Shown here: positions 10,530 to 29,777 of the stretch, piece by piece
How positions within the stretch are numbered: the first letter of the stretch is position 1
Layout: each line of letters opens with the position of its first letter
Virus record (IMG/VR): IMGVR_UViG_3300007960_000102
Location: 1 to 31,761 of that record
From: a virus
Reading direction: 5' to 3' (one strand)
Length of the DNA: 31,761 nt
Notes under the pieces: generated by a model
The model's database searches: none
Seen by the model: the letters and a program-made list of their open reading frames with translations, nothing else
Told to the model about the DNA's origin: nothing
Program-made: the position numbers and the translations under genes

Positions 10530-13500
10530 ATGGCACAAAACATTAATTTAAATACATCTCCATATTTTGATGATTTTGATCCAAGAAAAAATTATGGAAG
10601 AGTTTTATTTAAGCCAGGAACCCCAATTCAAGCAAGAGAATTAACAACACTCCAATCTATCTTGCAAAATCAGGTTGAAAAGTTTGGTAAACATTTTTTC
10701 AAAGAGGGATCTGTAGTAATACCTGGTGGCATTGCATATGATTCGGAGTACACATGTGTACAAATTGATCCATCTCACTTAAGTATTCCGGTAGAAACTT
10801 ACCTACCATTTTTACTTGGAAAACAAATAAAAGGTGAAAGTAGTGGGGTTTTTGCTAAAATTGAAAATTATATTACTAGTCAAGAGTCTGAAAATGATAC
10901 TTTTACTTTGTATATAAAGTATCAAAGTTCTAGTGAAAGTGATTTTACTTCTAAAACTTTTGTCGATGGTGAAAATTTAATAGTACTGGAAAATATTGAC
11001 TATGGTCTAGGAGTCATTAGATTGGATTCCTCATTTGCAACTACTACAATATCAAATTCTACAGCAATTGGATCTGCAGTAAAAATAGAAGAAGGGGTAT
11101 ATTTTATACGAGGATTTTTTGTAGATGTATTTCCACAAACTATTATATTAGATCAGTATTCCAATTTACCTTCCTATAGAATTGGACTATCTATTTTTGA
11201 AGACATAGCTATACCATCTCAATCAAATCCAGATTTATATGATAATGCAAGGGGATTTTCAAATTTTGCGGCTCCAGGGGCAGATAGACTAAGGATCGTA
11301 GCAACACTGATAAAAAAATCTTTAGATGATTTTAATGATGAAAATTTTGTGGAGTTGATTAGAATTGTAAATGGAAATATCCAAAGAATTCCTAGAAAAG
11401 AGAATATTCCATCACTAATAACTGATGAATTAGCTAGAAGAACTTCTGATGAGTGTGGAGATTACTACGTAACTCCATTTAAAGTTGTTGCTAAAGAATC
11501 ATTAAATGATAAAATAGGAAACAATGGTGTTTATAATCCGAATCAATTGACAAAACAAGGGAATAATCCCTCAGATGAGTTAATAACATTACAAATTTCA
11601 CCCGGAAAAGCATACGTTAAAGGATATGAAGTAGAGACTATTTTAACGGTAAATGCAGACTTAGAAAAACCAAGAACTACTGAAACCGTTAAAGATATAA
11701 CAGTTCCTTTTAGTTTAGGTAATCAAGTAGAACTTAATAATGTTTATGGATCTATTCCAGTTGGATTTGGTTCTACATCTCAAGTGACTTTGTTCTCGGA
11801 GAGAACTGTAACCCCAGGTCTTTCTTCAGGAATTCCAATAGGAGTTGGTAGAGTTTATGATTTAAAATTAAAAAATGCTGAGTATACTGGTGCCTCCACT
11901 ATTTTTGAGACATCGATTTATGATTTACAGACTTATACATATTTGACATTAAATGCTACTACAACTCTCCCTAAACCATCATTCGTTGAAGGAAAAAACA
12001 GCTCAGCTTCTGGATATTTGGTATCATCAGTCACAAACAATAATCAAGTAATATTATATCAAGTTTCTGGAGATTTTATTGTTGGGGAACAATTAAAAGT
12101 TGATGGACAAGATATTTCCAGAACAATAGTTAGTGTTAGAGACTATAATTTAGGTGATATTAAACAATTAGTTGGATACGTTGGATCGACAACATCTTTT
12201 ACAGCCGATACTAGAATATCTATAGGAATTCCCATTGCTCCACAGGGAACTAGTTTTACAATTTCTGCAGGTTCTGGGGGAATAAGTACTGTAACAACTT
12301 CTTCTTCAACTTTTGGTGTTGGAATTAATACAGGAGATATTTTTGTTTATACAAAATCAGGACAAATAGTACCCACTTATAACAGAGTTAACTCTGTAAG
12401 CACTTCTGGCAAGTCTATAACTGTTCAATCAACTACAAGTGTTTCTGGAGTTAGTAGTGGGGGACTACCTACCAGCACCACTGTAACAGATAGTTTGGTA
12501 AAAGGAGTTTCTACACTATTAAATTCTAAAGAATCTTTCATCTTTGCCGAATTACAAAATCCAAATGTTGCTAGTGTTGATGTTTCTAATGCTGAAGTAA
12601 TTTATAGGAAATCATATTCTGTAACAGTTGCGTCAAATGGGTTGACTGCAACTTTAGAGAGTGATACTAATATTACTTTACTGCCATTTGATGAAGAAGA
12701 TTATTCTCTAGTATTTTCTGATGGTACTATTGAAACATTAACTTCCAGTCAATTTACTATTACATCCGGCAGAACTTTAACATTAGTAAATTTAAGTAAG
12801 AATGGTCCTGCAACTTTAACAGCTACTTTAAGAAAAAAAAGATTAAAATCCAGAAAAAAAATCTATAATAGATGTGCAATTTTAGACGTAAGAAATTCTA
12901 GCACTCGTTCATCTGGAGTAGGTGGTACAACTCTTAATGATGGATTAACTTATAATCCATATTATGGAACAAGAGTACAAGATTCCAGAATATCATTGAA
13001 TGTTCCGGACGTAGCTCATGTTGTTGGTGTTTTTGAGTCTTCAAATTCAAGTGATGCAGAGTTGCCAAAACTAGAAGTTGTTGATTTAAATGCGAATATT
13101 TTAAATACTATTAAAGGTGAAATAATTTATGGAGAATCTAGTAATGCGATGGCACTATTTGTTTCAACTAATGGAACAAATCAGTTAGAATTTGTATATA
13201 TTAATGAAAATACTTTTATTAAGGGTGAAAAAATCATATTTAATGAATCAAATGTTAGTGCAAGAATAAGTTATTTGATAGAAGGTGATAGGAATATCAT
13301 ATCTGATTTTATTTTCGATAGTGGCCAAACTTTAGAAATAGTTAATTATTCATCGTTAAGGAGAAAATCTGGTGTTACACCACCAACAAAGAGGTTAAAG
13401 GTAGTATATAGTTATTATTATATAGATTCAAATGATGATGGAGACTTTGTAACGGTCAGTTCATATGAACTAGAAAGATATTCAAGAGATTTGCCAGATA

Positions 13501-16500
13501 TTTTTTACTACAAATCAAGTGATATTATAGACTTAAGACCTAGAGTTATTCCATATGATAGTTCTATAACTCCATTTTCTCCATTTGAATTTGATTCAAG
13601 AAAGTTTTCATCTTCAACAAATTCAAGTCCATATAATTTTGCTAAAGATAGAGACTTACTTTTATCTTATTCATATTATCTAGGTAGAGTTGATAAATTA
13701 TATCTTAATAGATATGGAGAATTCTTTATTACAAAAGGAGTACCATCAAATACTCCAATTCCGCCAAATGATGTTGACAACGCTATGGAAGTAGCTACGA
13801 TTACTATGAATCCATATGTGTACAATATTAAGGATGTTACTGTGAAACTATCTTCACACAAACGTTATAGAATGCAAGATATTTCACAACTTGAAGATAG
13901 GATAAAAAATATTGAATATTATAGCTCATTATCTCTTTTAGAAATTGATACAAAGAATTTATCTATTAGAGATTCCCAAACTCAGTTAGATAGATTTAAG
14001 TGTGGTTTTCTTGTAGATAATTTTAAATCTATACGTTCTGGATCTTTTGGCGATCCTCAACAAAAGTGTAGTGTTGACACTAAAGAAGGATTACTCAGAC
14101 CACAACATTATTCAACAGCAATAGACCTTCTTTTAGCTTCAGAATCCATAGCAGGATTATCAAATATTTCAAATCCAGATGCGGATTTAAGATTTGTAAA
14201 AGATTTGGGAAGTCCAAATACAGTTAAAGTTGGAGATGTAGTTTGTTTGAAATATACCGATGAAGTATTTTTAAAGAATACTTTTGCAACTAGAGTAGAA
14301 AATGTGAATGCATTTAATGTTGTTAACTGGATCGGGTCTATTGAATTAAATCCAACTTCCGATACTTGGATTGAAACTAGATCATCTCAGAGAACCATAG
14401 ACCAAGAAGGAAATTATGAAGCCACACTTAGATCTCTTGGTGCTGATACTAATACTGGATTGTCTCCAATCGATTGGGGTTCTTGGGAAACTACTTGGAC
14501 AGGTGTACGAGAAATTGATAGGCAAAATTTACATAGTATATTCCAAGGAAGTACATATGTTAGTTCCACTGGTAACTGGTGGCTTGAAGAACAAACTTGG
14601 AGAGATCAGTATTTTACATTTAGTAATGTAACCACTCTTACTACTACAGAAGAGTCTAGAAGAGGTGTTCAATATAAGGTTGGTGAAAGAATCGATTCAG
14701 TAAATTTGGGTACTTCCGTGGTATCTACAGACATTATTCATGTAATGAGATCCAGAAATATTGAATTTGTAGCAAAAAGATTAAAACCAAAAACAAGAAT
14801 GTATGCATTTTTCGATAACGTCGATATGAACAAATATATTGTTCCGAAACTTATCGAAATTCAAATGCAAGGTGGTGCTTTTATTGTTGGTGAAACTATT
14901 ATTGGTACATTAGGAAACACTTCTATTAGATTTAGATTGGCAACTGCCAATCATAAGTATGGACCATATAATAATCCAAATCAAGTTTATATCGAAAATC
15001 CATATGTACCTACACAATCAATACCCACTTCTTATTCTACAACATCAACTATACTGAATGTTGACACAGCTTCATTGGAGTTGCAATCTGATTCGACATT
15101 TTATGGCCACATTGTAGAAAATATGCAATTAAGAGGAGTGGTTTCTAGGGCAATTGCAAGAGTAACCAATATTAGATTAATTACTGATACTTCTGGTACA
15201 GTAATTGGATCATTATTTATTCCAAATGCTACATTACCATCTACTCCAACATTTGAAACTGGAACAAAAACTTTTGTTTTAACATCAAGTTCCAGCAATA
15301 CACCGATTATTGGAGCCACAGATAGTGTAGCGGATACTAAATTTAGATCTACAGGAACAATAAACAATACGGAAGAGGTTACTTTAAGGACAAGAAATGC
15401 AGATATAGAAAGAACCCACAGGACGGAAGAAAGAACATTAACTTCAAGAGAAACAACATTAACTGCAGGAACTACATTCCTAGATCGTACTGTAATCCAG
15501 AGAAGATGGGTCGATCCAGTTGCACAATCTTTTGAAGTTCCAGAAGAAACCGGAATGTTTGTTACAAAATGTGATTTGTTCTTCCAAAGTAAAGATACTA
15601 ATAATTTGCCAATTACCATGCAAATTAGAACAATGAAAACTGGTTTGCCCACTCAAACAATTGTTCCTTTTGGTGAAGTTACTTTAGATCCGAGACAAAT
15701 TAACATATCTGAAGATGGCAAAACTCCCACAACATTCACTTTCCCATCTCCGGTCTATCTTGAGAGTGGAAATGATTATTGTATAGCTCTACTTTCTGTA
15801 TCAAATGAATATAATGTTTGGATATCCAGAATGGGTGAAGAAGATGTAACAACCCTGAATTTACCAGAGTCCCAAAAAATAGTTGTGGCGCAACAACCCT
15901 TATTAGGATCGTTGTTTAAATCTCAGAATGGAGCTACATGGGATGCCAGTCAACTAGAAGACTTGAAAATGACTCTTTATAGAGCAAAATTTGTTACCGG
16001 ATCTTCTACGGTTAGATTCCATAATCCAAAACTGGACACAGGTAACAATCAAGTTGTAACTTTGAGACCCAACCCATTAGATTGTATTTCTAAGTCTACT
16101 TTGATTGGATTAGGAAAGAGCTTAACTTCAACTGAAGTTGATGGACTAACACCGGGAACTCCAATATTGCAAAGTAATAATGAACTCTTTAGTTCCAATT
16201 TAAAGAGTATAGTTGGATCTGTGGGAATAGGAAGTACTTTAGTAATAACTTCTTCAGGAATTGGATTTACATCTACATTTAAAACTTACTCCAATGTAAA
16301 CTTGGTTTCTATAACTGGATATGGTTTTGGAGCTAAGGTAAATCTAAGTGTTCAGAACGGAGTTGCTATCGCAGCTACAGTTTCAATTGGGGGAACTGGA
16401 TATGCTTATGGGGATTCGTTAGAAGTTAATTATTCGGAAACAGACGGACTTGGCAATAATTTAATTCTTACTATTCCAAATAATGTTGGTATAATTTCAT

Positions 16501-18014
16501 CATTCAACTCTTTATTGGTAGATAGAGTACAGGGAACTTTAAATAAAAATACTGTGGACAGTTTATATTATGTTGGTTCTTCTGGAACTTCACTTCTTTC
16601 TAGTGCGACTGTAAATACTATAACTGATTTGACTGATGGATTGCACTTCAAAGTCAGCCACAATAATCACGGAATGTATTCGATTGCCGATAGAGTTATA
16701 CTTTCTGGAATTCAACCCGATCAAAAACCAGAAACATTAACATCTTCATATAATTCAACATCTACCGATAGTATTGCAGTAAGTTCTGTTGGAATATTTA
16801 CTAGTTTTGAAAATGTTCCGGTTTCTTCTGTAAATCCTGGATATATTTTAATAGATTATGAAATCATTGAATATACTGGAATTGTCACATCTACCAAAAA
16901 TTTAATTGGAATAACAAGAAATATTGATAATACAGTTTCTGGATCTTATGACATCGATTCGTCAATCTTCAAATATGAATTAAATGGAGTGTCATTGAGA
17001 AGAATAAATAAAACTCATAATCTGTCTGACACCAATTTAGTTACTTATCCAACGGATCTAGATTATTATTATGTTAAAGTTGGAATGAGTAGTAGAGGTA
17101 TTGATAGAACTCCAGATAATGTTCTTGGATATCCTGCTCTATATTTCAAAGATGATAAATCTTGTGGGTCATATGATACAGTTCAGGCTTTAGGATCACC
17201 TAAAGTCCCCAAAGCGACACAAAATATACCATTCAATATAATTAGACCGAATATTCAAACATTATTACCTCAACAAACATCAATATCAGCAAAGGCAAGA
17301 ACTTTCAGTGGTTCTAGCCCAGATGGGGATTTAGTACCATTTTTGGATCAAGGATTTGTTGATGTACCATTGAACTCGAATACCGAATTTAGTTCACCCA
17401 GAATCATTTGTTCTCAAATCAATGAGGAAACTTATTTGTCAAGTTTCCCTGGTAAAAAGTCATTTACCATGGAACTAACAATGTCATCTCAGAATGATTA
17501 TGTTTCTCCAATGATCGACCTGGATAGGGTAAGTTTGATCACTGTTTCTAACAGAATAAACTCTAAAGTTACGGATTATGCTAATGATGCGAGAGTGAAC
17601 TCTCTGACTGATGATCCAACGGCAGCAGTTTATTTGAGTAGTCCTGTTTTATTGGATAAGTCAGCTGATACTTTGAAAGTATTTTTTGAGGCTTTCCGAC
17701 ATTCAACTAATGATATTAGATTGTGTTATAGAATCTTTAGGTCCGATTCTCCTTCAGAATCTCAACTTTGGCAATTATTCCCAGGATATGACAATCTGGA
17801 TGCAAATTTACAAGTGATTGATTCTTCTAAGAATAATGGAAGACCCGATAAAAATGTCTTAAGTTCTAAATTTGAAAATAATTTCAATTCTTATGAATTT
17901 ACTGCTTCCAATTTACCACAGTTTAATGGATTCCAAATTAAAATTCTAATGTCCGGAACTAATTCAGCATTTACTCCAAAAATTAGAGACTTTAGAGCTA
18001 TTGCAACCATCTAA
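10530..18014 (+). CDS. DUF4815-family giant virion protein (baseplate/fibre periphery)
   Basis: The N-terminus (NTSPYFDDFDPRKNYGRVLF, then PIQARELTTLQSILQNQVEK) is the hallmark of DUF4815 proteins of T4-like marine phages. These virion proteins follow gp8 in the place of T4 genes 9-12. At 2494 residues it is very long. Further landmarks: beta modules of the GExIxGxxS type (LLGKQIKGESSG, FIVGETIIGTLG); a charged segment near residue 1630 (ERTHRTEERTLTSRETT); then QRRWVDPVAQSFEVPEETG and KCDLFFQSKD (about 1655-1690), which begin a conserved beta-sandwich-like domain; an IDYE...TRNIDNT module near 2110; and a C-terminal block ending in FTPKIRDFRAI. A GGAG-like site (10515-10518) precedes the ATG, 5 nt after gp8, suggesting co-expression. 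A tail-fibre or baseplate-edge role is inferred. Confidence 0.85.
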   Translation: MAQNINLNTSPYFDDFDPRKNYGRVLFKPGTPIQARELTTLQSILQNQVEKFGKHFFKEGSVVIPGGIAYDSEYTCVQIDPSHLSIPVETYLPFLLGKQIKGESSGVFAKIENYITSQESENDTFTLYIKYQSSSESDFTSKTFVDGENLIVLENIDYGLGVIRLDSSFATTTISNSTAIGSAVKIEEGVYFIRGFFVDVFPQTIILDQYSNLPSYRIGLSIFEDIAIPSQSNPDLYDNARGFSNFAAPGADRLRIVATLIKKSLDDFNDENFVELIRIVNGNIQRIPRKENIPSLITDELARRTSDECGDYYVTPFKVVAKESLNDKIGNNGVYNPNQLTKQGNNPSDELITLQISPGKAYVKGYEVETILTVNADLEKPRTTETVKDITVPFSLGNQVELNNVYGSIPVGFGSTSQVTLFSERTVTPGLSSGIPIGVGRVYDLKLKNAEYTGASTIFETSIYDLQTYTYLTLNATTTLPKPSFVEGKNSSASGYLVSSVTNNNQVILYQVSGDFIVGEQLKVDGQDISRTIVSVRDYNLGDIKQLVGYVGSTTSFTADTRISIGIPIAPQGTSFTISAGSGGISTVTTSSSTFGVGINTGDIFVYTKSGQIVPTYNRVNSVSTSGKSITVQSTTSVSGVSSGGLPTSTTVTDSLVKGVSTLLNSKESFIFAELQNPNVASVDVSNAEVIYRKSYSVTVASNGLTATLESDTNITLLPFDEEDYSLVFSDGTIETLTSSQFTITSGRTLTLVNLSKNGPATLTATLRKKRLKSRKKIYNRCAILDVRNSSTRSSGVGGTTLNDGLTYNPYYGTRVQDSRISLNVPDVAHVVGVFESSNSSDAELPKLEVVDLNANILNTIKGEIIYGESSNAMALFVSTNGTNQLEFVYINENTFIKGEKIIFNESNVSARISYLIEGDRNIISDFIFDSGQTLEIVNYSSLRRKSGVTPPTKRLKVVYSYYYIDSNDDGDFVTVSSYELERYSRDLPDIFYYKSSDIIDLRPRVIPYDSSITPFSPFEFDSRKFSSSTNSSPYNFAKDRDLLLSYSYYLGRVDKLYLNRYGEFFITKGVPSNTPIPPNDVDNAMEVATITMNPYVYNIKDVTVKLSSHKRYRMQDISQLEDRIKNIEYYSSLSLLEIDTKNLSIRDSQTQLDRFKCGFLVDNFKSIRSGSFGDPQQKCSVDTKEGLLRPQHYSTAIDLLLASESIAGLSNISNPDADLRFVKDLGSPNTVKVGDVVCLKYTDEVFLKNTFATRVENVNAFNVVNWIGSIELNPTSDTWIETRSSQRTIDQEGNYEATLRSLGADTNTGLSPIDWGSWETTWTGVREIDRQNLHSIFQGSTYVSSTGNWWLEEQTWRDQYFTFSNVTTLTTTEESRRGVQYKVGERIDSVNLGTSVVSTDIIHVMRSRNIEFVAKRLKPKTRMYAFFDNVDMNKYIVPKLIEIQMQGGAFIVGETIIGTLGNTSIRFRLATANHKYGPYNNPNQVYIENPYVPTQSIPTSYSTTSTILNVDTASLELQSDSTFYGHIVENMQLRGVVSRAIARVTNIRLITDTSGTVIGSLFIPNATLPSTPTFETGTKTFVLTSSSSNTPIIGATDSVADTKFRSTGTINNTEEVTLRTRNADIERTHRTEERTLTSRETTLTAGTTFLDRTVIQRRWVDPVAQSFEVPEETGMFVTKCDLFFQSKDTNNLPITMQIRTMKTGLPTQTIVPFGEVTLDPRQINISEDGKTPTTFTFPSPVYLESGNDYCIALLSVSNEYNVWISRMGEEDVTTLNLPESQKIVVAQQPLLGSLFKSQNGATWDASQLEDLKMTLYRAKFVTGSSTVRFHNPKLDTGNNQVVTLRPNPLDCISKSTLIGLGKSLTSTEVDGLTPGTPILQSNNELFSSNLKSIVGSVGIGSTLVITSSGIGFTSTFKTYSNVNLVSITGYGFGAKVNLSVQNGVAIAATVSIGGTGYAYGDSLEVNYSETDGLGNNLILTIPNNVGIISSFNSLLVDRVQGTLNKNTVDSLYYVGSSGTSLLSSATVNTITDLTDGLHFKVSHNNHGMYSIADRVILSGIQPDQKPETLTSSYNSTSTDSIAVSSVGIFTSFENVPVSSVNPGYILIDYEIIEYTGIVTSTKNLIGITRNIDNTVSGSYDIDSSIFKYELNGVSLRRINKTHNLSDTNLVTYPTDLDYYYVKVGMSSRGIDRTPDNVLGYPALYFKDDKSCGSYDTVQALGSPKVPKATQNIPFNIIRPNIQTLLPQQTSISAKARTFSGSSPDGDLVPFLDQGFVDVPLNSNTEFSSPRIICSQINEETYLSSFPGKKSFTMELTMSSQNDYVSPMIDLDRVSLITVSNRINSKVTDYANDARVNSLTDDPTAAVYLSSPVLLDKSADTLKVFFEAFRHSTNDIRLCYRIFRSDSPSESQLWQLFPGYDNLDANLQVIDSSKNNGRPDKNVLSSKFENNFNSYEFTASNLPQFNGFQIKILMSGTNSAFTPKIRDFRAIATI

Positions 18015-18256: not shown

Positions 18257-18264
18257 CATAAATA
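18257..18264 (+). promoter_or_regulatory. T4-type late promoter box CATAAATA
   Basis: CATAAATA matches TATAAATA at seven of eight positions. It begins two bases after the stop codon of the coiled-coil gene and about 20 nt before the ATG at 18285. A start about 6 nt downstream would leave a short leader holding the CGGA ribosome site (18273-18276). Confidence 0.55.
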
Positions 18265-20382: not shown

Positions 20383-20420
20383 GGAGGATCCTTTTTTTAT
20401 GGCATCCTCCTATTTTTTTT
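20383..20420 (+). terminator. Rho-independent terminator after the 335-aa gene
   Basis: GGAGGATCC (20383-20391) pairs with GGCATCCTCC (20401-20410) with one bulged base, loop TTTTTTTAT, followed by TATTTTTTTT. A strong GC stem plus T-run is unusual in this AT-rich block. It separates the baseplate-type genes on the left from the beta-repeat gene. Confidence 0.85.
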
Positions 20421-20448: not shown

Positions 20449-22152
20449 ATGAATTATTCATTTGAAAGTACTATAGGCTCGTTAAAACTTGGTGTTATTA
20501 CAGGAATAAACACCAATACTTTTGCGTCAAAAACTGTCACTTTTAACATTAATGAAGAAATAATAACTTTTGGTAGAGAAATACTTGTAGGTCGATCCAA
20601 ATCCGTAGACGTTTTTGTTCCTTCTTACATAGGTACTCCCGCCCTATTCGGGGTTTCTGGCGAAACTAAGTACAGATTGTTATCAAACTACAGTGGAAGT
20701 GGAAGTATATTTGTAGATATTTTTTCGAGAAACTATGATTTTAAATATAAGGGCCGTGGATCATTAAATCTTAATGATGATAAAAAATTAACAAATACTC
20801 AAGGATTTAGAGCTCCATATAAAGCATCTGGTACATTTACTATTTCTGGAATAGGTGGATATAATTTTGAAATATCTCAATATATTTCTATTGGATCACT
20901 GAGTCTTTATGGGGATTCTTTAAATAGAAAAATTTCAGTTTATGGTTATTATGGTGACTCTGGAGAATTTGCAACTTCTGGATCAATTGCAATTTCTCAA
21001 CAAACAAGTTTAACCAGAGAAAAATTAAGCAAGTCTTATTCTGGTTCTGGTGAAATATTATCTACATCAGTAAGTGATCTTAAGAAATCTTATGCGTATG
21101 GTGGTAATGGAAATATTTCTATATCCGGAACAACTTCAGAATCTACTTCGATAAATTCTCCAAATAATGTACAGTTATTTACTTTCTCTAATTCTTCTCA
21201 GAATAGTTTTAGTAAACCGATTATAACAGATACACCAATTTATAGTATTTCCGGATATTCTTCATCCAAAGTTGTATATTCAAATATTAGTAGTGTCCAA
21301 ATTTCAATAAATGGATCATCCACAAATAATCAATTTATACTATCACCCACAACTTCTACCGCTTTATTCAGATTTACAAGATATGATGTAGATAATACAT
21401 ATGATACTTGCGATAGTGAAGACATTAAATGCGACAATCAAGATTCGGCTACATCTAAAGTCAGTTTTAGTCCTTCACAAGGATTTGGATTATTTGCATT
21501 TGATGGCGCATCTAACACTCAAATTAACTCAACATATTCTTATAACGCATTAAGTACATATCAATTATCTGGATCTTATAGTGGATTTAAATTTAGTTAC
21601 TCCGATATCGGAAGTGGATCACTATATGCTTTATCATCTTATAATGCAGTTGATACTAAAAATTATACTGGACAGATTGCTACATTAAATATTCTAGGTT
21701 CATCACAATCATCTGTTACAAGATCATCACCTTCTTCTGGTCATTTATATACTATATTTGGTAATAGTCTTGCAAAAATAGAATCTGAATACTTCATTGA
21801 TTCGAGTGGATTAATTAATTTTGGAGGTTTTGGATCCACCAGAAAACTATCAGTCTATTCCAAGGTTGGTTTAGTAGATTTTAATTTATATGGAGAATTG
21901 AATTATCCCGATGTCAGATTTGTACCATCTACTGTAACTGGGGGGTCTATTAATATTTCTGGATACTCTGAAGAATCAATTACTAAATTATATGTTAATA
22001 CTTTTAATACGTTATTTAATATTTGTTTTGGATTTGAATCATTCTCAAAATCTTCCTATGTTGGAATTGGATCGATATATGTTCAAGAAATAAATGCTCT
22101 CACTATCAATAATCCATATCAGATACCAAGAACATATGTTTCTATTATTTAA
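20449..22152 (+). CDS. Gly/Ser beta-repeat structural protein of 567 aa
   Basis: About fifteen short repeats of the form SGxhxhxG are visible: GSGSIFVDI (82-91), GRGSLNL (102), ASGTFTISG (126), SIGSLSLYG (147), TSGSIAIS (176), GSGEIL (199), GNGNISISG (219), QGFGLFAFDG (344), GSGSLYAL (388), SSGHLYTIFG (429), SSGLINFGG (452), TGGSINISG (497) and GIGSIYV (539). This fits a beta-solenoid or fibre shaft. A cysteine pair (321, 328) lies in YDTCDSEDIKCDNQDS. No signal peptide or membrane helix is seen. It sits where T4 has wac (fibritin), just before gp13, but no sequence likeness to fibritin is seen. It is bracketed by hairpins, with no clear late box or ribosome site upstream, so it may be expressed apart from its neighbours. 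Tail-fibre or whisker-like role is a guess. Confidence 0.7.
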   Translation: MNYSFESTIGSLKLGVITGINTNTFASKTVTFNINEEIITFGREILVGRSKSVDVFVPSYIGTPALFGVSGETKYRLLSNYSGSGSIFVDIFSRNYDFKYKGRGSLNLNDDKKLTNTQGFRAPYKASGTFTISGIGGYNFEISQYISIGSLSLYGDSLNRKISVYGYYGDSGEFATSGSIAISQQTSLTREKLSKSYSGSGEILSTSVSDLKKSYAYGGNGNISISGTTSESTSINSPNNVQLFTFSNSSQNSFSKPIITDTPIYSISGYSSSKVVYSNISSVQISINGSSTNNQFILSPTTSTALFRFTRYDVDNTYDTCDSEDIKCDNQDSATSKVSFSPSQGFGLFAFDGASNTQINSTYSYNALSTYQLSGSYSGFKFSYSDIGSGSLYALSSYNAVDTKNYTGQIATLNILGSSQSSVTRSSPSSGHLYTIFGNSLAKIESEYFIDSSGLINFGGFGSTRKLSVYSKVGLVDFNLYGELNYPDVRFVPSTVTGGSINISGYSEESITKLYVNTFNTLFNICFGFESFSKSSYVGIGSIYVQEINALTINNPYQIPRTYVSII

Positions 22153-22154
22153 TT

Positions 22155-22162
22155 AATAAATA
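22155..22162 (+). promoter_or_regulatory. Late promoter box AATAAATA before gp13
   Basis: AATAAATA matches the T4-type late box at seven of eight positions, just after the stop codon at 22150-22152. By T4 spacing, transcription would start near 22168, inside the loop of the following hairpin and 20 nt before the gp13 ATG. Confidence 0.55.
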
Positions 22163-22188
22163 CCTCTATAAGACTAGGGGTATTTTTT
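22159..22188 (+). terminator. Hairpin with T-run directly before gp13; may also mask its ribosome site
   Basis: AATACCTC (22159-22166) pairs with GGGGTATT (22177-22184) through seven Watson-Crick pairs and one U-G pair, with loop TATAAGACTA and a following T-run reaching the ATG. It would act as a terminator for the 567-aa gene. The right arm also holds AGGGG (22176-22180), the only plausible ribosome site for gp13. Confidence 0.65.
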
Positions 22189-23019
22189 ATGGCGCAGCCA
22201 TCTAGTAGAGTGGAGTTGAAAGAATACTGTCTGAAACAATTAGGCAAACCAGTTCTAGAGATAAACGTAGATGACGATCAAATTGATAATCTAATTGATG
22301 ACGCAATTCAGTATTATCATGAACGTCATTACGATGGAATTGATAGGGTATTCTTAAAACATAAACTCACTCCTGCAACTAAAGGAACTCTTTCTCAATC
22401 TGGTCCTGTAGGGACTTCAACAACATCTGGTGCGATTGTTGGAGCTGGACTCACTTCACTCACTTATGTTGAAGGAGTAAACTATTTACCTCTTCCAGAT
22501 TCGATCATCGGCGTTAATAATATTCTTAAAATAAATTCGAGTACGGTTTCAGACGGTTTATTTAATATTAAATATCAACTATTCTTAAATGATGTTTACT
22601 ATTATGGTGCATTAGACCTTCTCAACTATGCAATGGTCAAGAGATATTTGGAAGATCTAGATTTCCTTTTGAATCCACATGCACAAATTCGTTTCAACAA
22701 GTTAAATCATAAACTTTATCTCGATATTGATTGGTCTGAGGTGGGTGAAAATGAATATGTAATTATTGATTGTTATAGAATTGTTGACCCATCAGATGCA
22801 CCAAAACTATACAATGACTGGTGGTTGAAAAAATATCTTACGGCTCTTATAAAGAAACAGTGGGGTCAAAATATGATTAAGTTTAATGGAGTTCTTCTCC
22901 CTGGAGGGGTTCAATTAAACGGTAGGCAAATTTATGATGATGGGGTTACTGAGATAGAGAAATTAGAACAACAACTTAAGAATGAATACGAATTACCACC
23001 ACTAGATCTTATAGGTTGA
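22189..23019 (+). CDS. 13: Neck protein gp13 (head completion)
   Basis: Homologue of T4 gp13, which with gp14 forms the neck that seals the filled head and joins it to the tail. It has 276 residues (T4: 309). The N-terminus RVELKEYCLKQLGKPVLEIN followed by DDDQIDNLIDDAIQYYHERH is diagnostic, as are the later AQIRFNKLNHKLYLDIDW and DWWLKKYLTALIKKQWGQN. A low-complexity Gly/Thr/Ser insert lies near residues 65-90. The ATG follows the hairpin; gp14 begins one base after the stop, so the two are co-translated, fitting their joint assembly. Confidence 0.95.
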   Translation: MAQPSSRVELKEYCLKQLGKPVLEINVDDDQIDNLIDDAIQYYHERHYDGIDRVFLKHKLTPATKGTLSQSGPVGTSTTSGAIVGAGLTSLTYVEGVNYLPLPDSIIGVNNILKINSSTVSDGLFNIKYQLFLNDVYYYGALDLLNYAMVKRYLEDLDFLLNPHAQIRFNKLNHKLYLDIDWSEVGENEYVIIDCYRIVDPSDAPKLYNDWWLKKYLTALIKKQWGQNMIKFNGVLLPGGVQLNGRQIYDDGVTEIEKLEQQLKNEYELPPLDLIG

Positions 23020-23020
23020 T

Positions 23021-24454
23021 ATGTCACCACTCAATTCTTATTTTTTACAAGGATCTCCGAGTGAGCAGAGACTTATTCAAGATCTAATTAACGAACAACT
23101 TAAAATGTACGGACAAGATGTTCTGTACATGCCTAGAAGAATTATAGGCGAAAATACAGTAATTAAAGAAGTAACTGCTTCAAAATTTGATGATAGTTTT
23201 AGAATAGAAGCATACTTAATGAATTTTGATGGGTTTAGTGGTAATGGGGATCTTCTTACCAAGTTTGGTGTAAGGAGTAATGACGAGATCAATCTTGTGA
23301 TTTCTAAAGAGAGGTATGATGATTTTATCTCACCACTACTAAAATTATGGCCTGAAGATGAAAGAAAAGTTGCATATAGACCACAAGAAGGAGATTTGAT
23401 TTGGTTTCCTCTTGATGAATCTCTGTTTGAAATTAAGTATGTTGAAGGTAAAAAGCCTTTTTATCAACTCAATAATCTATATGTTTACGAACTTAGATGT
23501 GAAAGATTTGAATATGAAGATGAAATTATTGATGTCCCCGAAGTTGATGCAACTGGAATTGAAATTAATGAATCAATAAAAGATCTTGGAAATGTTTATG
23601 CGATTCAGATGGTCGGAACTGCGGCAACTACTGCGGTAGCTACGGTTGGTTTTGCAACTACAAATCCAAATTCCAAGTCCGTACAGTACATTGATCTCAT
23701 TAATGACGGATTTGGATATACTTTTGCACCTACGGTTTCTATATCTACTGCTCCAACTGGCGGTCAAACTGCAACCGCTGTTGCAATTATGACAAGTAGA
23801 TCTACAAACCAAAAACTTGCAATTGATAAGATTCTTATTACAAATCCCGGATTTGGTTATACTTTACCACCAACGGTTACTATTTCTGGTGGTGGTGGAG
23901 GAGCTGGTGGCATTGCAACTGCAATAATCAATACAGGAGTCCTGGGAATTGTTGGGCTTTCTTCTGGTGGAGTTGGATATACTACAACACCACAAGTAAC
24001 GATTCAGAGAGTCTTTATTCCGACTAGTGTCGGAGTATCTTCAAATATTAATAATGCACAGGCAGAGGCAGTAGTTAACTCTAATGGTCAAGTTGTTTCT
24101 GTTCGTTACTCCAACGCTGGTGCTGGGTATACATTCACCCCAACAATATCTTTCACAGATCCCACCGCAACTACTTTTGGCGATTATGATTATAATGAAG
24201 TTGTTACTGGTTCAAGAACTGGCACAACTGGATATGTAAGAGATTGGGATGCAACGAATAGAATACTCAAGGTTGCAATAGTTGATGGAGTTTTTGCAAG
24301 AGGTGAAGCTATAGTCGGAGTAGCTGCAAGTTATAAAGTTTCTACAGTTCAAACGAATGAATTCCAAGATCTCTATGCAGAAAATATTGAAATAGAAGAG
24401 GCTGCTGACCTAATTGTAGATTTCAGTCAAAAGAATCCATTTGGTGAATACTAA
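23021..24454 (+). CDS. 14: Neck protein gp14, with a large beta-repeat insertion
   Basis: The N-terminal ~190 residues match T4 gp14 (YFLQGSPSEQRLIQDLINEQ, MYGQDVLYMPRR, EGDLIWFPLDESLFEIKYVE, YELRCERFEYEDE), and so does the C-terminus (IEEAADLIVDFSQKNPFGEY). Between them (about residues 195-445) lies an insertion absent from T4 gp14, making this protein 477 residues against 256. The insertion carries four repeats: DGFGYTFAPTVSIS, PGFGYTLPPTVTIS, GGVGYTTTPQVTI and AGAGYTFTPTISF, and ends with a GSRTGTTGYV...FARGEAIVGV module. Both kinds also occur in the giant baseplate proteins. The insertion probably projects from the neck as a decoration or collar-like part (inference). Confidence 0.94.
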   Translation: MSPLNSYFLQGSPSEQRLIQDLINEQLKMYGQDVLYMPRRIIGENTVIKEVTASKFDDSFRIEAYLMNFDGFSGNGDLLTKFGVRSNDEINLVISKERYDDFISPLLKLWPEDERKVAYRPQEGDLIWFPLDESLFEIKYVEGKKPFYQLNNLYVYELRCERFEYEDEIIDVPEVDATGIEINESIKDLGNVYAIQMVGTAATTAVATVGFATTNPNSKSVQYIDLINDGFGYTFAPTVSISTAPTGGQTATAVAIMTSRSTNQKLAIDKILITNPGFGYTLPPTVTISGGGGGAGGIATAIINTGVLGIVGLSSGGVGYTTTPQVTIQRVFIPTSVGVSSNINNAQAEAVVNSNGQVVSVRYSNAGAGYTFTPTISFTDPTATTFGDYDYNEVVTGSRTGTTGYVRDWDATNRILKVAIVDGVFARGEAIVGVAASYKVSTVQTNEFQDLYAENIEIEEAADLIVDFSQKNPFGEY

Positions 24455-24457
24455 ATA
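24450..24457 (+). promoter_or_regulatory. Weak late-promoter-like box ACTAAATA before gp15
   Basis: ACTAAATA overlaps the gp14 stop codon (24452-24454) and lies about 25 nt before the gp15 ATG. It is the same variant as before gp8. Two mismatches to the T4 box make it doubtful. Confidence 0.25.
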
Positions 24458-24481
24458 ATTATTACACTACCAATACTTGTA

Positions 24482-25531
24482 ATGATCTCAAATTATTTTT
24501 ATCACGAAATATTGAGAAAGACGATTGTATCTTTCGGCACGTTGTTTAATGATATTAAAATTAAACATAAAGATAACGCAGGGGATGATTTTAGTATCCT
24601 AACTGTGCCGATTGCCTATGGTCCAGTACAAAAGTTCTTGGCAAGAATTGAACAAGTACCCGATCTCAAAAAGAGAGTAGCTATAACTCTCCCAAGAATG
24701 TCATTTGAAATGACAGGAATTCAATATGATCCTTCCAGAAAGTCTTCAACAATGCAGACTTTTAAATCAGTTGATAAGAATAATAATGGAGTGACAAATG
24801 TTTTCATGCCTGTCCCATATAATGTAAACTTCAAACTTTCAATTATGTCCAAATTGAATGAAGATGCTTTACAAATTGTAGAACAAATATTACCATATTT
24901 TCAACCACACTTAAATCTCACTGTTGACTTAGTATCAAGTATTGGGGAGAAACGAGATATCCCGATGATCCTTGAAAGAATTTCAATGGATGATCAATAT
25001 GAAGGGGATTTTACTACGAGAAGAATTTTAATTTATACTCTAGAATTTACTGCAAAGACATATCTATTTGGTCCTGTTGGAAATGGAAATGACTCTCTGA
25101 TTAAAGAGGTTCAAGTCGATTACTATACAAATACAAATAGAGTTAATGCTTCCAGACAACTCAGATATGTTGCTGAGCCAAGGGCTCTCAAAGATTATAA
25201 TAGCGATGAAATTACAGTAATTGCAGAAGATATTACTGAAGATGTTACGGAGTTTAATGTATCTGATGCAACTGCATTGGTTGTTAATTCATACATTCAA
25301 ATCGATGATGAGTCGATGTATATTCGTAAGATTACTGGAAATACTTTATTAGTCAATAGAGCACAAGATAATACTAGTATTGCAATCCATGCATCTGGAA
25401 CTGCAGTAAATGTAATTAATGACGCAGATGACGAATTAATAGATTTAGATGATGATTTTGGATTTAGTGAATATCGTTACGACTATGGCGATGGTAAAGT
25501 TTACAGTACTACTAAAGGAATTGATGTATGA
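24482..25531 (+). CDS. 15: Tail completion / sheath stabiliser protein gp15
   Basis: Homologue of T4 gp15, the hexamer that caps the tail tube and sheath and docks to the neck. Matching segments: NYFYHEILRKTIVSFGTLFN, DIKIKHKDNAGDDFSILTVP, KKRVAITLPRMSFEMTGI and above all ALQIVEQILPYFQPHLNLT (T4: FQIVEQILPYFQPHFNTT), then RRILIYTLEF. It has 349 residues against 272 in T4. The extra C-terminal part (about 245-315) is a beta module (VTEFNVSDATALVV, IQIDDESMYIRKITGNTLLV, NRAQDNTSIAIHASGTAV) also found in the giant proteins on the left, followed by an acidic tail. Its stop overlaps the gp16 start (ATGA). Confidence 0.94.
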   Translation: MISNYFYHEILRKTIVSFGTLFNDIKIKHKDNAGDDFSILTVPIAYGPVQKFLARIEQVPDLKKRVAITLPRMSFEMTGIQYDPSRKSSTMQTFKSVDKNNNGVTNVFMPVPYNVNFKLSIMSKLNEDALQIVEQILPYFQPHLNLTVDLVSSIGEKRDIPMILERISMDDQYEGDFTTRRILIYTLEFTAKTYLFGPVGNGNDSLIKEVQVDYYTNTNRVNASRQLRYVAEPRALKDYNSDEITVIAEDITEDVTEFNVSDATALVVNSYIQIDDESMYIRKITGNTLLVNRAQDNTSIAIHASGTAVNVINDADDELIDLDDDFGFSEYRYDYGDGKVYSTTKGIDV

Positions 25532-25956
25532 GTTTCGAAGATATTGATAAAGCTTTAGATATAGAACCAACAGAGATTAAATCCGAAATTGTAAAATCGG
25601 AAATTTCTCCAATCATAAAAAAAGAAGAATCAGATCAACTTCAAAAAGATTATGAATATTCTAGAGGACAACTTTATTCTATCATAGAAAAGGGTCAAGA
25701 AGCTATTAATGGTATTTTAGAACTCGCACAAGAATCTGATTCTCCTAGAGCATATGAGGTTGCTGGACAATTAATTAAAAACGTTGGCGATGTTACCGAC
25801 AAACTAATCGATCTTCAGAAGAAGATGAAAGATATTAATCAAGAACAAAAAGGATCTGCGCCAACTAATGTAACTAACAATGCAGTATTTTTGGGATCTA
25901 CTGCTGAACTTCAAAAGTTCTTGAAGAGTTCCATGAATCAGGATCTATCTAAATAA
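25528..25956 (+). CDS. 16: Terminase small subunit gp16
   Basis: Homologue of T4 gp16 (164 aa; here 142), the ring-forming regulator that recognises the concatemer end and stimulates gp17. Visible are the central helices KDYEYSRGQLYSIIEKGQEA and NGILELAQESDSPRAYEVAG, followed by QLIKNVGDVTDKLIDLQKKM, a coiled-coil-like hairpin, and a C-terminal FLGSTAELQKFLKS segment. The N-terminal 30 residues are charged and probably flexible. AAGGA at 25515-25519 is a good ribosome site, and the ATGA overlap couples it to gp15. Confidence 0.92.
   Translation: MSFEDIDKALDIEPTEIKSEIVKSEISPIIKKEESDQLQKDYEYSRGQLYSIIEKGQEAINGILELAQESDSPRAYEVAGQLIKNVGDVTDKLIDLQKKMKDINQEQKGSAPTNVTNNAVFLGSTAELQKFLKSSMNQDLSK
25948..25955 (+). 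promoter_or_regulatory. Weak late-promoter-like box TCTAAATA before the 654-aa gene
   Basis: TCTAAATA overlaps the gp16 stop codon and lies about 27 nt before the ATG at 25982. It is the third CTAAATA variant in the window in a comparable place, but matches the T4 box poorly. Confidence 0.25.
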
Positions 25957-25981
25957 AATATAGGAAAGTATTTGCAAAATA

Positions 25982-27946
25982 ATGGATAAACTCACCTTTA
26001 AGGAGTGGTCTATTCTCTCTGATCTGGAAACCATTGCTCCTCTTGGAGAAGACTTTGAGTTTTCTATGGCTCGTGGGGAACTAAAGACTGCAAAATCTGC
26101 TATTGAAAGATTGATGCGTCACCTCAAAGGTGAGGGAGATCTTGAAGCATGGGTTCAATCCAAGATCACTAAGGCATCTGAGTATCTTGATACAGTAGCT
26201 GACCACATGGATGGTGGCGAAGATGATACTGAGAAAAAGAAGGAAGTAAAAGAATCATTCAAGTCGTATAAGTCGGTAGAAGAAATCGCAAAAAAGCATA
26301 AAGTATCCCCATCAGTAATTGAAAAACAACTTGAGATGGGGATGAAAGTTGAACATGAACATACTACTGATAATCAAGTAGCAAAAGAGATTGCACTTCA
26401 ACATCTTGACGAACTTCCAAACTACTATTCCAAACTAAAGAAAGTAGAAAAAGTAAAAGAAGAGTGGTCTGACAAATATAAGAAGTCAATTGATTGCGAT
26501 AATCCAAAAGGATTTTCTCAGAGAGCTCATTGTCAAGGTCGTAAGAAAAAAATTGAAGAGATGATTTCTACCTCTTCGGTTACTGGTAGAAAATACAGAG
26601 ATATTTCAAGTAAAGAAGATCAGGCCGAACTTGAAAAAGAAAGAGGTGAAAAAGAAGAATCAAAGAGAACTTCCGCAAAAAAGAGAAAGGAAGAGTTGAC
26701 CTCTGAGAGACTGACAAAAGGTATTCGTTTCTACGATAAGAAAGGATCTGGTTATATTAAAGATGGAAAGAAAGTTTATGATGAATCTGCAAAACTAGAT
26801 GAAAAGTGTTGGGATGGTTATAAACAGGTTGGAATGAAAAAGAAGGGAAAAAAAGTAGTTCCCAATTGTGTGAAGGAGGAATCTATTGATGAAAACAAGA
26901 GTGGTGATAGTTCTTTGCGTGACTGGTTTACTAAGAGTCGCGCTTCTGATGGCACCCCTGGTTGGGTTCAACTGGGTGGTAAATACGCAGGAAAACCCTG
27001 TGCAAAACAACCAGGACAAACCACAAAACCAAAGTGTGGTTCCAGCAAAATGAAGGCAGACCTCTCCGATAAGGAAGAGGAAAAAGCATTCCGTCGCAAG
27101 AATGAAGAAGACCCAAATCCCGACAGAGAGGGTAAGGCTAAGATGGTTGCGACTGAAGAGAAAGACGCATGTTACTCAAAGGTAAAATCTCGTTATAAGG
27201 TTTGGCCTTCTGCATATGCTTCTGGTGCATTAGTTAAGTGCCGTAAAGTTGGTGCAAAGAACTGGGGCAATAAAACTCAGAAAGAGGGTTATGAGTTTTC
27301 TAACTGGAGAGATGAATTCAGAGCAACTGAGTATGAATTTGTGGATATTGTTAAACCGGATCCAATCGTAACTGGAACTTCCATCCAGGAAATGAATGAA
27401 ATGGTTAGATATTGCCCTAAGTGTAAGAAAAAAGAGACCGCAAAGGAATGTAAGTATGGTGAAGGTTATTGGAAAATGTTCTCAATGCCTGCATCATTAG
27501 ATCCAAATCCATATGACCCAAATGAAGTTCATCCAGCAAATGAAAATGTGAGTTTTGAGATCGGTGGAGGTCATAGACAGTCACAAAGAACTGCAAAAAT
27601 TAGAAATCTTGCAAAGGGTACTACCAATCCTAGAGAAAAGGCCGCTGCAATGAAGAAGTTTAGTGGCCCATCCCTACCACTTGCAGATTCTGTTATTCAA
27701 CCTGGGCAATTAACAAACGAGGACTATCAACGGATACAATCCACTGGTAATGTTTATACTATACTATTTTCCTGGAGAGGAAGACCAATGATGAATATTC
27801 AACTTTTCTTCCCAAATATGAAGAGACCATCAAAAGATGAAGTCAAAAAGGAAATCGAGAAGTTCTATCCAGGCGCAGTTATAATGCAGTGGTATCCAAG
27901 CCCCACAGACCCATCTAAACCAATTGTAGTTATTCCAGGTAAATGA
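25982..27946 (+). CDS. Mosaic protein of paired-cysteine, lysine-rich modules between the terminase genes
   Basis: No single known function. Modules visible in its 654 residues: an N-terminal helical unit (about 31-76, GELKTAKSAIERLMRHLKGE...LEAWVQSKITKASEYLDT); a DUF5661-like unit (about 100-155, GMKVEHEHTTDNQVAKEIAL, HLDELPNYYSKL); CDNPKGFSQRAHCQGRKKK (172-190); CWDGYKQVGMKKKGKKVVPNC (276-296); a DUF5872-like unit (312-390) with DWFTKSRASDGTPGWVQLGG and GKPCAKQPG; CYSKVKSRYKVWPSAYASG (397-415); CPKCKKKETAKEC (478-490); and a C-terminal FSWRGRPMM...IQLFFPNMKRPS unit (about 588-650). Many of these recur in other marine-phage proteins. An AGGA site (25962-25965) precedes the ATG. The stretch near 26930-27250 is clearly richer in G+C than its neighbours. 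Possible roles are a head-internal, scaffold-related or DNA-binding protein; none can be chosen from sequence. Confidence 0.75.
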   Translation: MDKLTFKEWSILSDLETIAPLGEDFEFSMARGELKTAKSAIERLMRHLKGEGDLEAWVQSKITKASEYLDTVADHMDGGEDDTEKKKEVKESFKSYKSVEEIAKKHKVSPSVIEKQLEMGMKVEHEHTTDNQVAKEIALQHLDELPNYYSKLKKVEKVKEEWSDKYKKSIDCDNPKGFSQRAHCQGRKKKIEEMISTSSVTGRKYRDISSKEDQAELEKERGEKEESKRTSAKKRKEELTSERLTKGIRFYDKKGSGYIKDGKKVYDESAKLDEKCWDGYKQVGMKKKGKKVVPNCVKEESIDENKSGDSSLRDWFTKSRASDGTPGWVQLGGKYAGKPCAKQPGQTTKPKCGSSKMKADLSDKEEEKAFRRKNEEDPNPDREGKAKMVATEEKDACYSKVKSRYKVWPSAYASGALVKCRKVGAKNWGNKTQKEGYEFSNWRDEFRATEYEFVDIVKPDPIVTGTSIQEMNEMVRYCPKCKKKETAKECKYGEGYWKMFSMPASLDPNPYDPNEVHPANENVSFEIGGGHRQSQRTAKIRNLAKGTTNPREKAAAMKKFSGPSLPLADSVIQPGQLTNEDYQRIQSTGNVYTILFSWRGRPMMNIQLFFPNMKRPSKDEVKKEIEKFYPGAVIMQWYPSPTDPSKPIVVIPGK

Positions 27947-27947
27947 A

Positions 27948-28124
27948 ATGAATGTAGACCCTTCTGAGATTGTACTTGAAGATATCAATAAAATGTTAAT
28001 CTATGAACAGCAGTCAAGAGTCATAGATAAATTAGATAGAGAAGAAGCAATAGAATTTGCAAAAGCTTATTTTAAGCTGTATCTAAAACAACAAGAAGTA
28101 GTAGCGAGTCTAGCGAAGTTTTGA
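27948..28124 (+). CDS. Small helical protein of 58 aa before gp17, unknown function
   Basis: An open frame starting MNVDPSEIVLEDINKMLIYE and ending QEVVASLAKF, predicted largely helical, with a charged middle (RVIDKLDREEAIEFAKAYFK). It begins one base after the TGA of the 654-aa gene and ends three bases before the gp17 ATG, filling the gap exactly, as expected of a real phage gene. Short proteins of this type between genes 16 and 17 are familiar from cyanophages. A packaging-related role is possible from position only. Confidence 0.72.
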   Translation: MNVDPSEIVLEDINKMLIYEQQSRVIDKLDREEAIEFAKAYFKLYLKQQEVVASLAKF

Positions 28125-28127
28125 TTT

Positions 28128-29777
28128 ATGAGTGATCAGATTTATCTTGGTAATCCAAACCTTAAGAAGGCTAATGTAGCTGTAGAATTCACACAGGAAC
28201 AAATTCTTGAATTTATCAAGTGCAAAAATGATCCTGTTTATTTTGCTAAGAATTATATTAAGATCGTTTCTCTGGATTATGGTGAGATACCATTCAAGAT
28301 GTATCCTTTTCAAGAAAAACTGATTACCAATTTCCACGATAATAGATTTAATATTTGTAGAATGCCTCGTCAGACAGGTAAATCTACTACTTGTGTTTCA
28401 TATTTGTTACATTATGCGGTTTTTAATGATAATGTAAACATAGCTATTCTAGCCAACAAGGCGTCCACTGCACAAGATTTGTTAAGTAGGTTGCAGTTTG
28501 CATATGAAAAATTACCAAAGTGGATGCAACAAGGTATCGTATCATGGAATAAACGATCTCTAGAATTAGAAAATGGTTCCAAAATTATCGCCGCATCTAC
28601 TTCTGCATCTGCTGTCCGAGGTGGATCGTATAATATCATCTTTTTGGACGAGTTCGCATTCATCCCAAATCACATTGCTGATGACTTCTTTGCCTCTGTT
28701 TATCCTACTATATCGTCTGGCCAAAACACAAAAGTCATCATAGTTTCAACCCCAAAGGGCATGAACCATTTTTATCGTATGTGGCATGACGCTGAACGCG
28801 GTAAGAATGAATATGTACCTACCGATGTTCATTGGTCTGAAGTTCCTGGTAGGGACGATAAATGGAAAGATCAGACCATTGCAAATACTTCGAAAGAACA
28901 ATTCCAACAAGAATTTGAATGTGATTTTTTAGGATCTTCAGATACTCTCGTATCTGCGGCAAAACTTAAATCTTTAGTTTATGATGATCCAATTAAATCA
29001 AATGCAGGGTTGGATATTTATGAGGAACCTCAAAAAGAACACAATTATGTGGTAACTGTAGATGTTGCAAGAGGTGTAGAAAAGGATTATTCTGCATTTA
29101 CTATTTGTGATACAACAAGTTTCCCATATCGCCTTGTTGCAAAGTATAGGAATAATCAAATCAAACCAATGTTATTCCCAAGCATAATTAAAGATCTTGC
29201 TATTGCATATAATAATGCATACATTCTTGTGGAAGTTAATGATGTTGGAGAACAAGTAGGTCAAATTCTTCACATGGACTTGGAGTATGATAATGTTCTT
29301 ATGTGTACAATGAGAGGTCGTGCTGGTCAACTAGTTGGTCAAGGATTTTCTGGTAAGAAATCTCAGATGGGTGTCAAGATGTCCAAAAATGTCAAAAAGA
29401 TTGGATGTATGAATCTTAAGACACTGATTGAGGGAGATAAACTAATTATTAAAGATTATGATACCATAAGTGAACTTACGACTTTTATTCAAAAATCAAA
29501 TTCATTTGAAGCTGAAGATGGATCCAATGATGATCTTGCAATGTGTCTAGTTATTTTTGCTTGGTTAATTGCACAACCATATTTTAAAGAGATGACGGAC
29601 AATGATGTTCGTAAAAGATTATACGAAGAACAGAAAAATCAAATTGAACAAGACATGGCTCCATTTGGATTCATAACTGATGGATTGGAAGGTGGGGAGA
29701 GTTTTATTGATGAAGATGGGGATCGTTGGCATATTGATGAGTATGGAGATAGATCATTTATGTGGGATTATCAATAA
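28128..29777 (+). CDS. 17: Terminase large subunit gp17 (packaging ATPase and nuclease)
   Basis: Homologue of T4 gp17, the motor that pumps DNA into the prohead and cuts the concatemer. The ATPase domain shows a Walker A PRQTGKST (80-87), a Walker B with catalytic acid IIFLDE (170-175), and a coupling motif IIVSTPKG (204-211). The RNase H-like nuclease shows the three acidic sites in order: VTVDVARG (Asp312), ILVEVNDVG (Glu369) and SNDDLAMC (Asp468/469). Its 549 residues compare with 610 in T4, and all key residues are present. It follows the 58-aa gene by three bases, and its TAA overlaps the next ATG by one base. Confidence 0.97.
   Translation: MSDQIYLGNPNLKKANVAVEFTQEQILEFIKCKNDPVYFAKNYIKIVSLDYGEIPFKMYPFQEKLITNFHDNRFNICRMPRQTGKSTTCVSYLLHYAVFNDNVNIAILANKASTAQDLLSRLQFAYEKLPKWMQQGIVSWNKRSLELENGSKIIAASTSASAVRGGSYNIIFLDEFAFIPNHIADDFFASVYPTISSGQNTKVIIVSTPKGMNHFYRMWHDAERGKNEYVPTDVHWSEVPGRDDKWKDQTIANTSKEQFQQEFECDFLGSSDTLVSAAKLKSLVYDDPIKSNAGLDIYEEPQKEHNYVVTVDVARGVEKDYSAFTICDTTSFPYRLVAKYRNNQIKPMLFPSIIKDLAIAYNNAYILVEVNDVGEQVGQILHMDLEYDNVLMCTMRGRAGQLVGQGFSGKKSQMGVKMSKNVKKIGCMNLKTLIEGDKLIIKDYDTISELTTFIQKSNSFEAEDGSNDDLAMCLVIFAWLIAQPYFKEMTDNDVRKRLYEEQKNQIEQDMAPFGFITDGLEGGESFIDEDGDRWHIDEYGDRSFMWDYQ

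Follow-up and report, generated by a model that had tools for sequence, protein, structure and literature searches.

The window, by which we mean the whole stretch of 31,761 nucleotides analysed here, is a cyanomyovirus record of IMG/VR. In its open reading frame list, a gene of 567 amino acids (20449-22152, plus strand, stop codon 22150-22152), whose product matches no Pfam or PHROG family, lies directly upstream of gp13 (22189-23019, plus strand), which encodes the neck protein or head-tail adaptor Ad2 (phrog_211, E value 1.2e-45). Downstream of gp13 on the same strand are gp14, gp15, the terminase small subunit, an unknown protein of 654 amino acids and the terminase large subunit (23021-29777). 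Judged from the sequence, these genes are likely served by the late promoter of gp13; exact ATAAATA does not occur on the plus strand between 22163 and 30046. In such phages a hypervariable host-recognition island adjoins the neck genes (PMC7029224).

The structural region also holds two very long open reading frames, at 229-8895 (2888 aa) and 10530-18014 (2494 aa). Between a 335-aa gene and the 567-aa gene we found a strong hairpin resembling a terminator, GGAGGATCC...GGCATCCTCC with a T run after it (20383-20418; -13.4 kcal/mol, z -4.1), which a rule-based terminator scan does not call, probably because of its long loop.

Just 5′ of gp13, a late promoter box, a hairpin and a ribosome site form an element of 34 nt. 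The T4-type box, read directly, is AATAAATA (22155-22162, plus strand), as the initial annotation had it, and can be compared with the cyanophage late consensus NATAAATA (PMC2984593). It runs into the left arm of an 11-bp stem, in which AAATACCTCTA (22158-22168, plus strand), containing an ACCTC similar to an anti-Shine-Dalgarno, pairs with TAGGGGTATTT (22175-22185, plus strand) around the loop TAAGAC (22169-22174, plus strand). The hairpin proposed earlier therefore exists, but its arms had been drawn too short, at 22159-22166 and 22177-22184. The right arm contains AGGGG (22176-22180, plus strand, 8 nt 5′ of the ATG), the only Shine-Dalgarno (SD) of gp13, in agreement with the earlier claim. 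A terminator-like run of six T (22183-22188, plus strand), with T6-T8 in relatives, abuts the start codon. The 39 nt at 22153-22191 fold with -12.6 kcal/mol compared to a mean of -4.5 in shuffled sequences (z -4.52, 0 of 200 shuffles as low). In most relatives a 12-bp stem is capped by a G-GAAA-C tetraloop. Separately, the gp13 start codon lies inside a small hairpin, AUGGC-GCA-GCCAU (22189-22201), possible in the long and the late RNA alike.

T4 late boxes occupy -13 to -6 (PMC1524935). At this spacing the predicted late start (+1) is 22168 on the plus strand, the last base of the left arm, consistent with the start that had been expected near this position, and the late RNA would thus lack the left arm. 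In folding models, window RNA starting at or after about 22166 forms no local hairpin; with a start 4 nt earlier part of the hairpin still forms, above all in the consensus. The box has the properties of a T4-type late promoter, being a consensus match on the coding strand just 5′ of a late gene, and close relatives keep ATAAATA even though the box begins with unpaired bases. Late boxes in the window number 10 in sense and 4 in antisense, and they are strongly one-sided in 8 cyanophages (for example 53 versus 3).

Conservation of the element and its pairing

Among the closest gp13 loci with a leader, found by protein, the late box is present in 13 and the full element TATAAATACCTCTA-loop-TAGGGGTATTTTTT in 12, while the sequence 5′ of the element is mostly unrelated. 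The upstream gene varies among relatives and the element stays with gp13; we accordingly reject the view that it is simply the terminator of the upstream gene. Among the 284 gp13 leaders classified, 85 carry the element with its U-run and 22 carry it without; most leaders outside the element-bearing clades do not have it.

Viral contigs scanned for ATAAATACCTC..GGGGTATTTTT, with no gene required, contain at least 119 matching stretches. Among the matches listed, gp13 accounts for about 105, and all stretches lie 0-7 nt 5′ of a start codon (read by eye); the non-gp13 matches listed belong to a RusA-like resolvase, endonuclease VII, a SegE GIY-YIG nuclease and two families of unknown function. 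Loci L113, L123 and L166, with their relatives, carry the same late-box/SD hairpin on genes of the RusA, endonuclease VII and SegE types, a parallel to T4 gene 49 and I-TevI. Each genome having the element has a single copy. In named phages, BLAST of the 39-nt consensus returned one clear relative, S-SCSM2R, whose copy lies near 101638, and the pattern ATAAATACC..GGTATTTT is absent from Syn9, S-PM2, P-SSM2, S-SSM7, S-N03, GAP32 and T4. A known Rfam RNA was also considered and rejected, the best matches being far below gathering scores.

Between gp13 clades (88 non-identical U-run leaders), the element positions not fixed by the selection pattern are 86-96% identical, a value inflated by the sampling, as the element itself had initially served to detect many of the clade B-D loci. 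Identity is 24-40% at gp13 four-fold sites and about 31% over the 40 nt 5′ of the element, and these two comparisons do not carry that bias. The U-run itself (T5-T8) is kept in 85-88 main-group leaders. One gp13 (L368, at about position 2001) is 96% identical to that of an element-bearing D-clade query and has a late box in an unrelated leader without the hairpin; its upstream gene also differs from that of the query. The switch proposed below would therefore not be indispensable.

Loss of pairing in relatives had been named beforehand as one result that would refute the switch; pairing is kept by compensatory change. The stem occurs in two-sided variants, namely CCTC/GGGG, CCCC/GGGG, CCTC/GAGG and CCCG/TGGG, and one leader (L147) has a one-base-pair insertion on both arms. 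In the U-run set, which contains two non-gp13 members, 97.6% of cells are paired, two-sided changes affect 4 of 12 pairs, and the covariation score is 0.199 compared to 0.079 when shuffled (0 of 500) and at most 0.060 when slid. The set restricted to gp13, U-less leaders included, is 89.7% paired and scores 0.163 compared to 0.103 when shuffled. The exception is L022, which has the same upstream gene as the window and a degraded stem, with two compensatory changes but two mismatches. These comparisons indicate that the hairpin is kept by selection on pairing.

Opening energies and the T4 leaders

Hairpins that sequester the ribosome binding site (RBS) are named for T4 e, 49, I-TevI and soc (PMC3014915). 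In gene e the long RNA is blocked and the late RNA translated (PMC3014915), and in the hairpins of I-TevI and other homing endonucleases the position of the late promoter leaves the late RNA without the left arm (PMC2988022). The gp13 leader has the same two defining features, a box overlapping the 5′ arm and an SD in the 3′ arm. The leader of gene 49 (endonuclease VII), AATAAATACCCTTA...TAAGGGTTTATT-ATG, likewise has its box in the left arm, its SD in the right arm and its start after the stem; it differs in the gene, in a shorter T stretch and in the E. coli host. That of gene e (lysozyme), TATAAATACCTTCTA...TAGGAGGTATT-ATG, has nearly the same left arm as the window; in contrast, it has two late boxes and no U-run, and it guards against premature lysis. 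The I-TevI type yields late RNA without the left arm, as is predicted for gp13, but from nuclease genes, intronic or free-standing, whereas the gene here encodes a structural protein. Only T2-T3 follow the stem in e, 49 and I-TevI compared to T5-T8 in the main group of gp13 leaders.

We computed the predicted cost of opening the ribosome site (-15 to +3) in read-through and in late RNA. Element leaders with the U-run have means of 16.3 and 6.0 kcal/mol, respectively (n = 87), element leaders without it 10.3 and 5.9 (n = 23), and leaders with the box only 6.2 and 4.3 (n = 62). The corresponding T4 values are 16.8 and 3.9 for e, 16.9 and 3.0 for 49, and 13.8 and 1.5 kcal/mol for I-TevI. The initial annotation had likened the leader to e and soc: the likeness to e, and also to 49 and I-TevI, holds in layout and energetics, while soc, although likewise RBS-sequestering by name, is much weaker by opening cost (8.1 versus 5.8 kcal/mol). 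With 12.1 kcal/mol in read-through and 7.4 in late RNA (region 22176-22191), the window copy is a weak member, below most leaders, and in the model of its late RNA the SD is largely paired with coding sequence.

Late boxes in terminator-like hairpins

The initial annotation described an overlap of promoter, terminator and ribosome site. Box, hairpin and SD do overlap; the terminator is the least certain assignment. The window hairpin escapes the rule-based scan, probably because its stem takes up three of the six Ts: the hairpin can be drawn with 11 bp, leaving three Ts free, or with 8 bp, leaving all six. The second terminator scan of this analysis accepts the S-SCSM2R homologue.

Across 16 genomes (14 cyanophages, T4 and GAP32), 19 hairpins of -8 kcal/mol or better have their left arm in a late box and their right arm at a ribosome site, compared to 0.3 in shuffles, and this screen recovers T4 e, 49 and I-TevI unprompted. 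In a search that began from terminators, predicted late starts concentrate where the left arm ends, in the 0-10 nt 5′ of the loop centre; at U-run hairpins there are 18 in 10 nt against about 1 per 5-nt bin, about ninefold over background. U-runs precede the start codon in 7 of 14 cases with such hairpins and in 12 of 374 without (p value = 6e-7).

In many of the nested late-box hairpins the right arm contains no SD. Several gp13 leaders, that of S-PM2 among them, have the late box within the loop of a strong terminator, apart from the SD. Based on these sequences, the late promoter nested in a terminator is the wider pattern and SD masking a narrower one that includes the window. The arm polarity (C left, G right) is constant in gp13 elements, and both polarities occur in other genes. 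Finally, 24 gp13 leaders have box, stem and SD and no U-run, suggesting that masking persists even where termination is unlikely; elsewhere, the leaders with the box in the loop point the opposite way. For the clade of the window, masking and termination both at once are plausible.

A literature search on late promoters overlapping terminators returned no relevant report. PeSL cassettes, in which a promoter is fused to a stem-loop terminator, reportedly occur in variable regions of RB49-like phages; they differ from the gp13 element in that their promoters are early sigma-70 promoters. Two further leaders were observed. The neck gene of Cronobacter phage GAP32 (JN882285; L209, 2425-2517) has CCCCTAAATATG...CATGTTTAGGGGTATTTTTTATG, whose left arm holds a CTAAATA box and whose right arm holds the SD; it may be an independent case. 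In S-N03 (L211, 1480-1526) the ATG of a hypothetical gene follows CTCCTAGGAAACTAGGGG, 5′ of which stands a sigma-70-like TACAAT in place of the late box, possibly an early-promoter version of the layout.

A probable translational switch and proposed insulation of the neck operon

We consider it probable that the element is a T4-type late translational switch situated at the start of the neck and packaging operon, its U-run tail probably serving also as an intrinsic terminator. A polymerase arriving from upstream would produce RNA with both arms, which would fold; the folded read-through RNA would be released at the U-run or would elongate with its SD locked in the stem. From a gp55-type late promoter on the left arm, RNA would begin at the end of the arm, form no hairpin, escape termination and expose the SD. 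As both arms would be present only in read-through RNA, the operon would rely on its own late promoter and be insulated from the variable upstream gene. Several points speak against this reading: a ribosome halting at 22152, the end of the 567-aa gene, would cover part of the left arm; L368 has no hairpin and L022 a degraded one; the window copy is weak, with an SD largely paired in its late RNA model; the rule-based scan calls no terminator; and the element is missing from most gp13 leaders outside its clades.

The closest alternatives keep one of the two functions. That the element is just a translational switch like those of T4 e, 49 and I-TevI, with the U-run as a spacer and no termination, is rather unlikely: the opening energies match those of the T4 cases, whose stems are followed by so few Ts, and U-less gp13 leaders exist, but the long U-run is kept throughout the main group and U-runs are enriched with such hairpins generally. 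We also regard as unlikely that there is only a promoter nested in an insulating intrinsic terminator, from which late RNA escapes and in which the SD pairing is incidental. The accompanying U-runs, the recurrence of nested boxes in many cyanophages, often without a right-arm SD, the S-PM2-like gp13 leaders and the position at the edge of a variable region would all fit this, whereas the leaders keeping box, stem and SD without a U-run, the uniform arm polarity at gp13 and the rule-based scan speak against it.

In a different explanation, the element is an exchangeable regulatory cassette or recombination joint at the edge of the host-recognition island and its conservation reflects module exchange and not gp13 regulation. 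The unrelated flanks upstream of a constant element, the replaced leader of L368 and the hypervariable island beside the neck genes (PMC7029224) are in its favour. We nevertheless hold it to be improbable: identity is limited to the 34 nt and does not continue past the start codon, the four-fold sites that follow being nearly saturated, the element is single-copy, and compensatory changes indicate selection on the pairing. As AAATA is complementary to TATTT, a U-run stem can give rise to a late box, yet a mere chance overlap of an AT-rich box with a palindrome is extremely improbable given the conservation and the genome-wide excess of hairpins, and is rejected on the shuffles and the covariation.

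That the switch would make neck-protein synthesis strictly late, as first proposed, is unsupported. A nearly identical gp13 (L368) does without the hairpin, the stem of L022 is degraded, the window copy is weak, and the 567-aa gene may itself be late, since late boxes at 18257 and 19290 belong to structural genes neighbouring it. If it is late, the element would insulate instead of delaying, and insulation from upstream transcription is at least as good an explanation of the element as timing.

A broader reading is possible, though we put it forward tentatively and at less than even confidence: the 34 nt would act as a three-way insulator that terminates transcripts of a swappable upstream gene, masks the RBS in those that escape and fires an immune late RNA. 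If true, host-recognition genes could be exchanged beside the neck and packaging operon with the operon undisturbed, and cyanophage genomes would in general be punctuated by late promoters nested in terminators. The switch itself would extend a control known mainly from T4 nucleases and lysozyme to the structural and packaging operon of abundant marine viruses, by a strongly constrained non-coding module amid saturated flanks. It would also offer a testable rule for uncultured phages, namely to look for such switches where a late start is predicted at the point where the left arm of a terminator ends.
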